Translations under genes and position numbers: made by a program
The notes under the pieces: generated by a model
What the model was told of the DNA's origin: nothing
What the model saw: only the letters and a program-made list of their open reading frames with translations
Database searches by the model: none
Assembly: GCA_902521615.1 (NCBI GenBank)
Contig: CABYSJ010000006.1
Coordinates: forward strand, 16,860 to 80,859
Length of the DNA stretch: 64,000 nt
Origin: an uncultured Pelagibacteraceae bacterium
GTDB taxonomy: Bacteria > Pseudomonadota > Alphaproteobacteria > Pelagibacterales > Pelagibacteraceae
Direction: 5' to 3'
Shown: one piece after another, positions 58,237-63,442 of the stretch
Layout of the letters: each line of letters begins with the position of its first letter
Position numbering within the stretch: position 1 is the stretch's first letter

Positions 58237-59178
58237 ATGTCTAATATTTTAATCATTAAACATGGATCTTTGGGTGATATAGCTCAAGCTTGTGGTGCAA
58301 TTCAAGATATTTCTGAGAATCACAAACAAGATGAAATTTATTTACTAACAACCAAACCGTATTTTGATTTATTTAAAAAAAATCCACATATTTCTAATGT
58401 TATTTTGGATAAGCGATTATCAAGACTGAACTTGATTTACTTATATTCATTAATGAAAAGCATAAAAAAATATAATTTTTCTAAAGTTTATGATCTTCAG
58501 AACTCAAGTAGAACAGTCTTTTATAAAAAAATTTTATTTCCAAAAGCAACTAAAGATACTTGGTCATCTACTGATACAACATTACCCAAAGGAACCACAA
58601 AAGAGGATTTTGATAAAGACTCTGTTTTGTCTAGATTTGATTATCAATTAAAAAATTCAGGCATAAATACAAATCATACTTTAAAACCTGATTTTTCATG
58701 GAGCACAACTGACATATCTCAAATAAAAAATCACCATCAATTAGATAAATATATTCTGCTTTTTCCTTTTTGCTCGCCTCATTTAACTTCAAAGAAATGG
58801 CCTTATTATAATGAGTTAATTGCTATAATTAATGAAAAATTAAGTAACAAATTAAAAGTAATAATTGCACCTGGACCAAGCGAAATTAAGGAAGCATCAA
58901 ATATTAATGCACTCTGTGTTTTAGATAATGGTAAAGCTTTAGATATTTCTCAGTTAGCAGCATTAATTAAAGATAGTTCATTTGTTATTGCAAATGATAC
59001 TGGACCAGCACATATCACAGCTCATTTGGGATCAAAAGGAATTGCTTTATTTGGATCTCATACAACTCCTTTTAAAGTAAGTATCGAAAGAGAAAATTTT
59101 AAAGCAATACAGGCCCCAGAATTATCTAAACTTTCTGCAGAAAAAGTTTTTGAGAGACTTTCTGAAATTATTTCTTAA
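58237..59178 (+). CDS. Glycosyltransferase family 9 / heptosyltransferase-like
   Basis: ILIIKHGSLGDIAQACGAIQDI, FVIANDTGPAHITAHLGSKGIALFGSHTTP. Confidence 0.88.
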   Translation: MSNILIIKHGSLGDIAQACGAIQDISENHKQDEIYLLTTKPYFDLFKKNPHISNVILDKRLSRLNLIYLYSLMKSIKKYNFSKVYDLQNSSRTVFYKKILFPKATKDTWSSTDTTLPKGTTKEDFDKDSVLSRFDYQLKNSGINTNHTLKPDFSWSTTDISQIKNHHQLDKYILLFPFCSPHLTSKKWPYYNELIAIINEKLSNKLKVIIAPGPSEIKEASNINALCVLDNGKALDISQLAALIKDSSFVIANDTGPAHITAHLGSKGIALFGSHTTPFKVSIERENFKAIQAPELSKLSAEKVFERLSEIIS

Positions 59179-60244
59179 TTTTTTCAATTACTCTTAAAAA
59201 TACAGGGACTGTGAAAAGTATGAAAAGCAATCTTATTATATGGTGAAAAGCAACAAAGTCTGGGTCTAAATCAAAAGCTATTGCTATAACTGCCACCTCA
59301 TAAATTCCTCCAGGACTAAAAGATAAGATTAAAGTCAAAATATTTGTCTCAACAAAGAATGTTGCAACATAGGCTGCTGCCAAACCTAATACTACCAAAA
59401 TAGTAGTGGCCACAATACTATGAAGAGATTTATTAGCTATCTCATTAACAGTTTTTTCAGCAAATTTACAACCAACTGAAGAACCAAGAATTAGTAAACA
59501 AAAATTCACCGTTTCATCTGGTAATTTATATGAGGCTATATCTGTAATTTGCAACAAACCACTAGCAAATAATGTTCCAGATAGTAAAGCTGCAGGAATT
59601 CTAATTTTATCAAAAACAAAAATAAAAAACAAAGATGCAATTATAAGTAAAATTAAATTTAAATGATTTTGAGCTAAATAACTGAAGTCATCGTTTAATA
59701 AAATATTGTTGTCAGTATTATTAACTATAATAAATGGAATGACAGTTATTATGATGATTAATCTAATTAAGTGAGAGGTTGCAACTTGAGATAAATCTGT
59801 TTTCTCATTTTCAGCTAAGATCATTAAAGGGCCCAATGCACCAGGAGCTGCTGAAAATATTGAGGCTTTTTCACCATAACTTGCAAATTTTTGAAGGTAT
59901 TTAGCGACAACTAAAATACAAATTATTATGTAAATTAACATAATTAATGAAGTCCAAATCCAATCAAGCATTTGATTAAATAGATTTTGGTCTATGTAAT
60001 TTCCAATATGCAAACCTAAAATTATCAAGATAAAACTTAATACAATTTTAGGCATGGTAATTTTTAGGCCTGATAGGGCAGCAATTGACGTGATAATCAT
60101 AGGTCCTAAAAACCAAGCAAGAGGAATTTTAAAATAGTCAGCAATGATTGCGCTAGGAAAAGAAATTATTAAAACAGAAATAAATTTAATTGAAAATACT
60201 TGTTTTGCATTTTCAAGATAAGATTTGATTTGATGATTAATCAT
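59168..60244 (-). CDS. AbrB family (YbbC-like/ammonia monooxygenase-related) membrane protein
   Basis: LAWFLGPMIITSIAALSGLKI, FSAAPGALGPLMILAE, FSPGGIYEVAVIAIAFDLDPDFVAFHHIIRL. Confidence 0.8.
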   Translation of the reverse strand: MINHQIKSYLENAKQVFSIKFISVLIISFPSAIIADYFKIPLAWFLGPMIITSIAALSGLKITMPKIVLSFILIILGLHIGNYIDQNLFNQMLDWIWTSLIMLIYIIICILVVAKYLQKFASYGEKASIFSAAPGALGPLMILAENEKTDLSQVATSHLIRLIIIITVIPFIIVNNTDNNILLNDDFSYLAQNHLNLILLIIASLFFIFVFDKIRIPAALLSGTLFASGLLQITDIASYKLPDETVNFCLLILGSSVGCKFAEKTVNEIANKSLHSIVATTILVVLGLAAAYVATFFVETNILTLILSFSPGGIYEVAVIAIAFDLDPDFVAFHHIIRLLFILFTVPVFLRVIEKIKK

Positions 60245-60467
60245 TTATTAAGCTTCTATCATCAACTTTTTAAAAGATAAGAAAAAAGAAATTAGAAACT
60301 AGTGAATAAAGTGAAACTTTAATCTATAAAAAAAATTAAATATCACAATTGTTTAATATTTTTTTTATTAAATCAGCTTCAATTATAAGTTGTGTTACTT
60401 AATTACAGGTTGAATAAATATTAAGACTATAATTAACTACATTTTTTAAATTAGAGAGGGATAAATA

Positions 60468-61448
60468 ATGAAAAACTTAAAAAAAATAGTTTCAGTATTA
60501 TTCTCAGCAATCCTATTATTCTCAGCAACAACTACAAGTTCGATAGCAATTGACAAATTGCACTTTGTAATTGGTGGTGGTGCTGGTGGTGGTTGGGATG
60601 GAACTGCTAGAGGTACTGGAGAAGCTTTAACAAAAGCTGGAATGTTAAGTAGTGCATCATTTGAAAATATGTCAGGTGGTGGTGGTGGTAAAGCGTTAGC
60701 TTACATGATTAATACTAAACCTGCTAATACAGTTTTAGTTCAATCAACACCATTAGTATTAAGATCAATTACTAGACACAAAGGTTACGTAAAAGGTAGC
60801 GGAACTTTATCTTATAAAGATGTTGTGCCAATCGCTGGTGTAATTGGTGATTATGGTGCTATCGCAGTTGCAAAAAGTTCATCTTTTAAAAACTTTAAAG
60901 ATGTAGTTGATGCTTATAAAAAAGATCCAAATTCAGTTAAAATGGCTGGAGGATCAGTAAGAGGAAGTATGGACCATTTAATTGGTGCTTTAGCTTTCCA
61001 AGCTGCAGGCGCAGATCCAAATGCTGTTCAATACATTCCTTATGATGCTGGTGGAAAAGCTTTGGCTGGACTTTTATCTGGAGAAACTCAAATCATTTCA
61101 ACTGGTTTAGGTGAATTGATGGGTGCAAGAGACCAAGTGAGAATTATTGGTATTACTGCTCCTTCGAGAGTTTCTGATGCACCAGATGCACCAACTCTTA
61201 AAGAACAAGGATATGATGTGCAATTCGTAAACTGGAGAGGTTTCTTTGGGCCTCCAGGTATGAGCAATGCTGATAGATCAGCTATTGCAAAAATGCTTGG
61301 CGATGTACAAAAAACTCCTGAATGGGAAACTGTCAGAGCAAGAAATGCTTGGGTTAATATTTATAATCCAGAAGGTAAGTTTGTTTCTTTCTTAGAAAAA
61401 CAAACTCAAGAAATGACAGCTCTTATGAAAAAACTAGGAGTTATATAA
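60468..61448 (+). CDS. tctC: Tripartite tricarboxylate transporter substrate-binding protein
   Basis: Signal peptide; LHFVIGGGAGGGWDGTARGTGEAL, WRGFFGPPGMSNADRSAIAKML. Confidence 0.9.
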   Translation: MKNLKKIVSVLFSAILLFSATTTSSIAIDKLHFVIGGGAGGGWDGTARGTGEALTKAGMLSSASFENMSGGGGGKALAYMINTKPANTVLVQSTPLVLRSITRHKGYVKGSGTLSYKDVVPIAGVIGDYGAIAVAKSSSFKNFKDVVDAYKKDPNSVKMAGGSVRGSMDHLIGALAFQAAGADPNAVQYIPYDAGGKALAGLLSGETQIISTGLGELMGARDQVRIIGITAPSRVSDAPDAPTLKEQGYDVQFVNWRGFFGPPGMSNADRSAIAKMLGDVQKTPEWETVRARNAWVNIYNPEGKFVSFLEKQTQEMTALMKKLGVI

Positions 61449-61470
61449 TCCTTAGGATTATTTGAAATTA

Positions 61471-61523
61471 GAGCAGTGAATATAAATACTACAAAAATTA
61501 TATCACTGCTCTTTTTTATTTTT
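61471..61523 (+). terminator. Intrinsic terminator overlapping the tctB start
   Basis: GAGCAGTGA...TCACTGCTC (perfect 9-bp arms, extendable by TATAA/TTATA across a bulge) followed by TTTTTTATTTTTT. Confidence 0.8.
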
Positions 61524-61946
61524 TCAGCATTTTACTTATATACTGCTTACCAAATTCAAGTATTTGCATTTGATGAAAATGCACCATTTAATGCACGAAC
61601 ATTTCCAATTTATTTAGGTTATGCAGGATTATTTTTTTCTGGATTAAAACTTATTTTACCAGACCCAAATACTATTAAAGTTGATCATAAAAATTTAGAA
61701 TATAAAAAAACAGGTATACTTATACTTATTGCTATTATTTATGGAGCTACAATTTTAAAGGTTGGTTATTTTTTAACCACTTCATTATTTTTATTTGCTT
61801 CTTATTATTTTTTAGGAGAACGAAGATGGATTTTAATGTTTTTATTATCATTTCCATTTGTTGCTGCCTTTATGTATCTCCTACACGGTATTCTTGATAT
61901 ATATTTGAGGGATCCATTCTTACAATCAATAGGAGTCATGGGATGA
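61476..61946 (+). CDS. tctB: Tripartite tricarboxylate transporter small membrane subunit
   Basis: Four-TM small protein between tctC and tctA; GTG start inside a hairpin. Confidence 0.82.
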   Translation: MNINTTKIISLLFFIFSAFYLYTAYQIQVFAFDENAPFNARTFPIYLGYAGLFFSGLKLILPDPNTIKVDHKNLEYKKTGILILIAIIYGATILKVGYFLTTSLFLFASYYFLGERRWILMFLLSFPFVAAFMYLLHGILDIYLRDPFLQSIGVMG

Positions 61947-63442
61947 TTGAAGGAATATTAATTGGATTAACAACAGCGCTTACTTTTCAGAACATATTAA
62001 TGGTTATGGTTGGTTGTTTTTTTGGAACAATCATTGGAATGCTTCCTGGTCTTGGGCCAATGACAGCTATCGCATTGATGATACCAATTACCTATGGTTT
62101 CGATCCTGCAACAGGATTAATTTTGATGGCTGGTGTTTATTATGGAGCAGTATTTGGTGGTTCTACTTCTTCTATATTGTTAAATGCACCCGGTGTTCCT
62201 GGAACTGTTGCAACTTCATTTGATGGTTATCCTATGGCACAACAAGGTAAGGCAGGTAAGGCTTTAGCGATTGCAGCATGGAGTTCGTTTGCAGGTGGAA
62301 CATTATCTGCAATTTATTTATTATTCATGGCACCAAGTTTATCAAAAGTAAGTTTATCCTTTAGATCACCAGATTATTTTGCTTTAATGATTTTAGGTTT
62401 AACTGCAATCGCTGCTTTTTCATCTAAAGGACAATTTTTAAAAGCTATGATGATGGTAGTACTTGGCTTGATGTTAGCATCTGTTGGTCAAGATAGCTTA
62501 TCTGATATTACAAGATTTACTTTTGATAATATGAATTTAACAGATGGTATAAGTTTTGTTCTAGTCGTGATGGCAACTTTTGCAATGAGCGAAGCTCTAA
62601 CAATCATTTTAAAAAGAAATGATCCAACCAGTGCTGCTAAACAAGTTTCATTAACTGAATTAGGCTCAATTAAGATTAATAAAGAAGAACGAACAAAAAT
62701 GTATAAAACAATCCCAAGATCATCAGTAATTGGTTTTTTAATTGGTGTTTTACCTGGAGCTGGTGCAACAATTGCATCATTTTTAGCTTATGGAATGGAA
62801 CGAAATGTTGTTAGTGATGAGGAAAAAGAAAAATTTGGTAAAGGCAGTGTAAATGGTTTATCTGCACCAGAAACTGCAAACAACGCTGCTTGCTCAGGTT
62901 CTTTTGTGCCAATGCTCACTTTAGGAATTCCTGGGAGTGGAACTACAGCTGTAATGCTAGGGGCTCTTTTAGGTTTTGGGGTTCAGCCCGGTCCCAGACT
63001 TTATATGACTAATCCTGAGATTTTTTGGTCAATAATAATGTCTATGTATATTGGAATGGTAATTTTGCTGATATTAAACTTACCACTTATTCCTTACATA
63101 GCTAGAATTCTTGCTGTTCCTAAAAATTATTTAATTCCTCTTATTTTATTTTTCTCCGTCACTGGGATTTACGTAATGTCATTTAATAATTTTGATATTT
63201 ATTTAATGATTGGGATTGCTGTAGTTGCAACTTTTTTAAGATTATATGATTTTCCAATGCCACCTTTAATATTAGCTTTTGTTTTAGGTGGATTGATGGA
63301 GGAAAACTTGAGACGATCTTTATTATTAAGTAATGGTTCATGGGAATTTTTATGGGACAGAACATTAACTGCATGTATCTTAGCAACTACAATTTTAATT
63401 GTAGTTTGGCATATTTACAAAACTTTTAAGAAGAAAAATTAA
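61943..63442 (+). CDS. tctA: Tripartite tricarboxylate transporter large membrane subunit
   Basis: GTIIGMLPGLGPMTAIALMIPITYGFDP, YYGAVFGGSTSSILLNAPGVPGTVATSFDGYPMAQQGKAGKAL. Confidence 0.95.
   Translation: MIEGILIGLTTALTFQNILMVMVGCFFGTIIGMLPGLGPMTAIALMIPITYGFDPATGLILMAGVYYGAVFGGSTSSILLNAPGVPGTVATSFDGYPMAQQGKAGKALAIAAWSSFAGGTLSAIYLLFMAPSLSKVSLSFRSPDYFALMILGLTAIAAFSSKGQFLKAMMMVVLGLMLASVGQDSLSDITRFTFDNMNLTDGISFVLVVMATFAMSEALTIILKRNDPTSAAKQVSLTELGSIKINKEERTKMYKTIPRSSVIGFLIGVLPGAGATIASFLAYGMERNVVSDEEKEKFGKGSVNGLSAPETANNAACSGSFVPMLTLGIPGSGTTAVMLGALLGFGVQPGPRLYMTNPEIFWSIIMSMYIGMVILLILNLPLIPYIARILAVPKNYLIPLILFFSVTGIYVMSFNNFDIYLMIGIAVVATFLRLYDFPMPPLILAFVLGGLMEENLRRSLLLSNGSWEFLWDRTLTACILATTILIVVWHIYKTFKKKN

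Follow-up and report, generated by a model that had tools for sequence, protein, structure and literature searches.

Internal terminators after the genes of solute-binding proteins are already known, and so are mRNA hairpins that sequester a start codon and serve as translational operators or in translational coupling. The SAR11 bacteria combine an extreme investment in periplasmic binding proteins with scarce intergenic DNA and only a small set of regulators. In cellulolytic Clostridia, stem-loops located after the binding-protein genes of ABC importers were found by northern blots to terminate transcription partially (PMC9045158). A survey of RNA motifs in Candidatus Pelagibacter ubique, thus in the same group of organisms as the hairpin described here, reported one motif that is a bulged hairpin, followed by poly-U in about half of the cases (Meyer et al. 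2009; PMC2704228). It searched long intergenic regions, with a table of those above 100 bp, and could therefore not find a hairpin that overlaps coding DNA; the term "tct" is absent from its text (PMC2704228).

The present hairpin is situated at the boundary between tctC and tctB, two genes of a tripartite tricarboxylate transporter (TTT). With hairpins sequestering a start codon or Shine-Dalgarno (SD) sequence it shares a start codon (and in relatives an SD) placed in a stable stem, as well as the use of early coding DNA, but it differs in being followed by a U-tract, by which it also becomes terminator-grade. Neither a sensor domain nor a regulator was identified for it. Like the clostridial stem-loops it stands immediately behind the 5' binding-protein gene and thus separates it from the permease genes, lower levels of the downstream transcripts being expected in both cases, and some of the clostridial types have a U-rich tract that is partly paired, as in the deeper relatives of tctB (PMC9045158). 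The clostridial stem-loops are predicted to be intergenic, however, while the tctB stem holds a start codon and coding DNA, and a search of the text of that study revealed no mention of a start codon or coding sequence (PMC9045158). They also belong to ABC importers, whereas the transporter here is a TTT in which the read-through mRNA is predicted to be translationally restricted as well. A single element being terminator, start lock and coding DNA, together with a family-wide codon constraint, was not found in the literature searched, which was mostly without subscription journals.

The window, i.e. the whole stretch of 64,000 nucleotides that was analysed, comes from a genome of 1.2 Mb and contains tctC-tctB-tctA, the TTT operon in Pelagibacter (SAR11), with all three genes on the plus strand. 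tctC (60468–61448, stop codon TAA at 61446–61448) encodes the periplasmic solute-binding protein (Pfam PF03401, E 3e-12), tctB (61476–61946) the small membrane subunit with a GTG start (PF07331, E 9e-14) and tctA (61943–63442) the large membrane subunit (PF01970, E 1e-153), the latter gene having a 4-nt overlap with the tctB stop. The divergently oriented gene at 59168–60244 belongs to the AbrB family of membrane proteins (PF05145) and has a 223-bp upstream region in common with tctC, and the tct promoter is therefore most likely located in 60245–60467.

The first-pass annotation had proposed an intrinsic terminator at 61471–61523 that at the same time encodes the start of TctB, and the hairpin and its tail have the sequence described there, the interval being one base short at each end. 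The hairpin, 61470–61512, consists of 10+5 bp and is followed by the U-tract TTTTTATTTTTT at 61513–61524. The 5' arm of the lower stem (61470–61479, AGAGCAGTGA) holds the tctB start codon GTG (61476–61478). After a one-base bulge at 61480 follow the two arms of the upper stem, identified by folding and alignment (TATAA at 61481–61485 and TTATA at 61498–61502, enclosing a loop of 12 nt), and the 3' arm of the lower stem (61503–61512, TCACTGCTCT), which contains the codons TCA CTG CTC T for Ser10-Leu11-Leu12-Phe13 of TctB, while the U-tract encodes Phe-Phe-Ile-Phe of the first transmembrane (TM) helix. The stem begins 6 nt ahead of the tctB start and the U-tract occupies codons 13–17, hence it is not intergenic; the gap from the tctC stop to the stem is 21–22 nt (21 nt in the window). 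When folding the RNA of 61440–61530 an energy of -22.7 kcal/mol was obtained (z = -4.4), and none of 200 shuffles was as stable. A mechanical terminator scan lacked the hairpin because it restricts loops to 3–8 nt. A known RNA family was rejected, as the Rfam models gave only a chance match to mir-6 on the opposite strand, far below the gathering score.

Folding and comparison of loci revealed a second conserved structure at the junction, a 7-bp hairpin at 61445–61461 (ATAATCC-TTA-GGATTAT), the 5' arm of which holds the tctC stop codon. With regard to an attenuator, which would have an alternative anti-terminator fold excluding the terminator, this is the only further conserved structure noticed in the fold and the loci compared, and it does not overlap with the terminator hairpin. 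Of 205 distinct loci, 193 have 5 bp or more of it, compared to 65 of 205 shuffled spacers, and many compensatory forms occur. Its role may be to delay or free the ribosome that terminates on tctC, or to keep it from re-initiating. In a complete relative (G082), hairpins of this kind over the stop codon are also predicted ahead of several further terminators, e.g. after the rhodopsin gene.

The relatives of this tctB come from Pelagibacteraceae and Candidatus Pelagibacter. In total, 264 orthologous tctC/tctB junctions were gathered, 207 of them distinct, and in all 207 the gene starts with GTG in the 5' arm of the hairpin, corresponding to GTG 61476 and to the start given in the first-pass annotation, which the search for a different one did not refute. 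Alternative starts were rejected since the open frame upstream of GTG 61476 is short, varies in length and contains no ATG, GTG or TTG, and the next ATG is situated far inside the protein, at about codon 121. That the hairpin is coding DNA is secure from the Pfam match to TctB and the conserved N-terminus. The codons of the 3' arm deviate strongly from the rest of the tctB genes, where TTA is the dominant Leu codon: 205 of 206 genes use CTG for Leu11, a codon that makes up 1.5% of the remaining tctB Leu codons, and 179 of 206 use CTC for Leu12 (2.0% of the remainder); when Leu12 is instead CTT the opposite base is A and not G. The GTG start and the rare Leu codons are kept for the sake of the base pairs, being forced by the fact that the same bases encode both the first TM helix of TctB and the hairpin.

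Among 89 distinct hairpin regions the pairs of the lower stem are all kept with three single exceptions (two sequences at the inner pair and one at -3/+34), and the start-codon pairs +1/+31, +2/+30 and +3/+29 are intact in every region. At -5/+36, 74 of the 89 regions have G-C and 15 have A-U, without a single mixed or broken pair, and on a tree made from tctB codons 21–155, with the hairpin columns excluded, this pair has changed four times, at least three times on supported branches, both sides switching each time. Across 37 diverse sequences the lower stem is paired in 99.5% of cells, and sliding the partner strand 1–3 bases lowers the pairing from 91% to 40–62%. For the same sequences the covariation score is 0.163 against 0.110 in shuffles with 0 of 500 as high, a count that is no probability because the sequences are related. 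Since a sign test with three independent pairs cannot reach significance, the covariation claim rests on the preserved pairing and on the codon evidence, which is independent of the shuffles. The stem, whose conservation across relatives was thus upheld with compensatory changes, is a selected RNA element and no coincidence; a chance hairpin or a pure codon effect was rejected by the frozen rare codons, the invariant GTG and the compensatory changes. Only a single ortholog (L118) has lost a lower-stem pair through a change in the 3' arm, with CTGATT for CTGCTT and Leu12 replaced by Ile; the break is close to a contig end and may be a sequencing error or real decay.

The near-perfect inverted repeat could also take a dimeric protein and thus be the DNA operator of some regulator, or its conservation could reflect protein constraint plus chance, the residues SLLF being conserved. 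The tolerated G-U pairs (among others +2/+30, which is T-G in 12 of 89) point to RNA and not to a DNA palindrome, and on this ground a DNA operator was rejected, while protein constraint and chance are opposed by a codon choice frozen beyond the amino acids, as for CTG at Leu11, and by two-sided changes that preserve the pairing. Both explanations are considered highly improbable.

The strength of the terminator was addressed with a standard d'Aubenton-type score, compared with its threshold. Of 148 close orthologs, 146 score above it (d = 12.9 in the window), and transcript 3' ends are predicted at about 61517–61521. Among the deeper orthologs, only 3 of the 27 A-U-type loci and 8 of the 32 others do so, the U-tract of those below (24 of 27 and 24 of 32, respectively) being interrupted by C, A or G, and termination may therefore be absent there. 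The hairpin itself was found in orthologs of eight genera of the family (g1, g2, g3, g4, g6, g11, g12 and g14); across orthologs the start-covering hairpin is constant and the terminator strength variable.

These differences bring in the main rival explanation, a purely translational operator that hides the SD and start of tctB, so that synthesis of TctB and TctA is slow or depends on translation of tctC, the U-tract representing Phe codons with little termination. It is favoured by the hairpin over the start being universal while the terminator scores are not, and by the composition of the tract: codon 13 is TTT in 88% of cases, compared to a background of 86% TTT for Phe elsewhere in these tctB genes, so the U-run by itself adds little, and the U-tract as a selected feature was rejected for lack of enrichment. 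In two genera, g2 and g4, a clear SD (GGAGG or GGAAG) can be identified inside the 5' arm, which is extended there, and TTC is frequent at Phe13, its C being paired to the SD (G-8). The clade of the window lacks this clear SD of its relatives, with a weak AGAG in the arm of the window, a point that counts against the reading preferred below. Two orthologs from f27, a different family within the class (G730 and G765, 42–43% identity), have a hairpin of unrelated sequence in the same place, which pairs an SD and a TTG start with codons of the first TM helix. Within that family this tctB is present in only 2 of 52 genomes (L407 and L409), and its acquisition by gene transfer is possible. A third TctB type (L131, L132, L133 and L148; genera g7, g9 and g12) carries a strong hairpin at its ATG (GAGAAAGCAAG / CTTGCTTTCTC), in which G-C pairs are replaced by A-U from one genus to another; it is not immediately followed by a U-tract, as would be the case for a translational operator. 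Against that explanation stands the tract of the window's clade, which is unusually complete and nearly always terminator-scoring, and in addition two features of the same genomes, namely plain terminators outside coding DNA at other binding-protein/permease junctions and a perfect terminator near the start of a second tctB. A purely translational operator is therefore regarded as rather unlikely.

The terminators of the same lineage were studied in the complete relative G082, of which 1.2 of 1.44 Mb were read (L289–L348). This revealed 19 strong gene-end hairpins with U-tract, few for the genome. Nine of them come after genes of solute-binding proteins, i.e. PstS-like, SBP_bac_3 of amino-acid type, two DctP, two of Peripla_BP_4 type, TAXI type, TctC1 and TctC2, with a permease gene next in most cases; the Peripla_BP_4-type gene at 399057, and the two genes after DctP that crossed locus borders, were judged by sequence only. 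Others follow genes that are presumably highly expressed, those of rhodopsin, GroEL, porin, cold-shock protein and ammonium transporter. The distance from stop codon to hairpin is mostly 21–25 nt, which the spacing after tctC matches, and the share of about half of the listed terminators coming after binding-protein genes fits differential expression.

The second operon, tctC2-tctB2, is located in the same genome as the window (G000 contig 10, L162). Its terminator, AAAAAAGGGCAAAC-AAAA-GTTTGCCC-TTTTTTTTT, is perfect and lies entirely in coding sequence, at about codons 7–18 of tctB2 (KKRANKSLPFFF), and it is present in 31 of 31 loci examined (L162 and the set L349–L378), a few with a one-base change. 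The ATG of tctB2 is placed in the loop of a small conserved hairpin (GTACATT...AATGTAC), and this start is fixed by a stop codon directly 5' of the ATG in some relatives. As tctB1, tctB2 and the third type each have a hairpin at the start, such hairpins arose in several settings in the lineage. When analysing about 20 loci of other alphaproteobacterial families, mostly no comparable hairpin was found at the tctB start (z about -2 to +2.5); two exceptions, L413 (z -3.1) and L420 (z -2.7), have folds unlike the SAR11 hairpin, and a general alphaproteobacterial feature was thus rejected.

Taken together, of the three roles in the first-pass annotation, which had one sequence acting as terminator, start-codon sequestrator and coding DNA, the coding role holds throughout. 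Termination is well supported as a prediction in the clade of the window, from the scores, the spacing and the same layout after other binding-protein genes, but the claim may not carry over to most of the deeper relatives, in which the start-covering hairpin persists; the roles are not equally old or certain. Start sequestration may have come first and termination may have been added later, since the terminator-grade U-tract is confined to the clade of the window while deeper relatives keep the hairpin, often with both SD and start in the stem.

The reading that we prefer is that the hairpin acts as a cis-acting RNA setting TctB and TctA well below TctC, which we consider likely. Transcription from a promoter upstream of tctC would meet the hairpin about 21 nt past the stop codon, beyond the stretch covered by the ribosome that terminates on tctC. 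In the clade of the window most polymerases would then stop in the U-tract, yielding a monocistronic tctC mRNA in large amounts, protected at its 3' end by the hairpin, and the read-through fraction would constitute a tctB-tctA mRNA with its GTG start paired in the stem and only weak translation of tctB. Ribosomes coming from tctC are the most plausible means of opening the hairpin and allowing tctB to be translated. By analogy, the hairpin is in this way probably linked to the ratio of the subunits.

Differential decay of a polycistronic mRNA is a known route to unequal expression, and the hairpin could also be a stabiliser or processing point, the tctC-tctB-tctA transcript being cut or decaying from the 3' side with tctC protected. 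A stable stem at the end of tctC, together with the small stop-codon hairpin, would suit this function, which on the other hand needs neither a start codon or SD in the stem nor a U-tract, and for which a plain intergenic hairpin would suffice without the burden on the codons; we find it improbable.

The preferred cis-acting RNA may be extended, tentatively, to a double gate responding to ribosomes, in which the nascent hairpin terminates after tctC and the hairpin of the read-through mRNA keeps the start of tctB closed. The amount of permease would then depend on ribosomes that come in from tctC or, for tctB2, initiate on this gene ahead of its internal terminator. Gates embedded in coding DNA would in that case have evolved at least twice in SAR11 (tctB1 and tctB2), as a low-cost tuning of stoichiometry with few regulators.

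The locus is a clear case of a membrane protein that has its start codon, always GTG and never ATG, and some rare codons dictated by RNA structure, and codons dictated in this way can bias tests of synonymous rates and the prediction of gene starts. With the hairpin present in a large fraction of Pelagibacter genomes, tctB being carried by 138 of the 399 sampled in the genus, its transcript ends can be searched for in existing marine transcriptomes. If a terminator at the permease start is indeed present, a streamlined genome would fix the excess of its binding protein without any extra bases.
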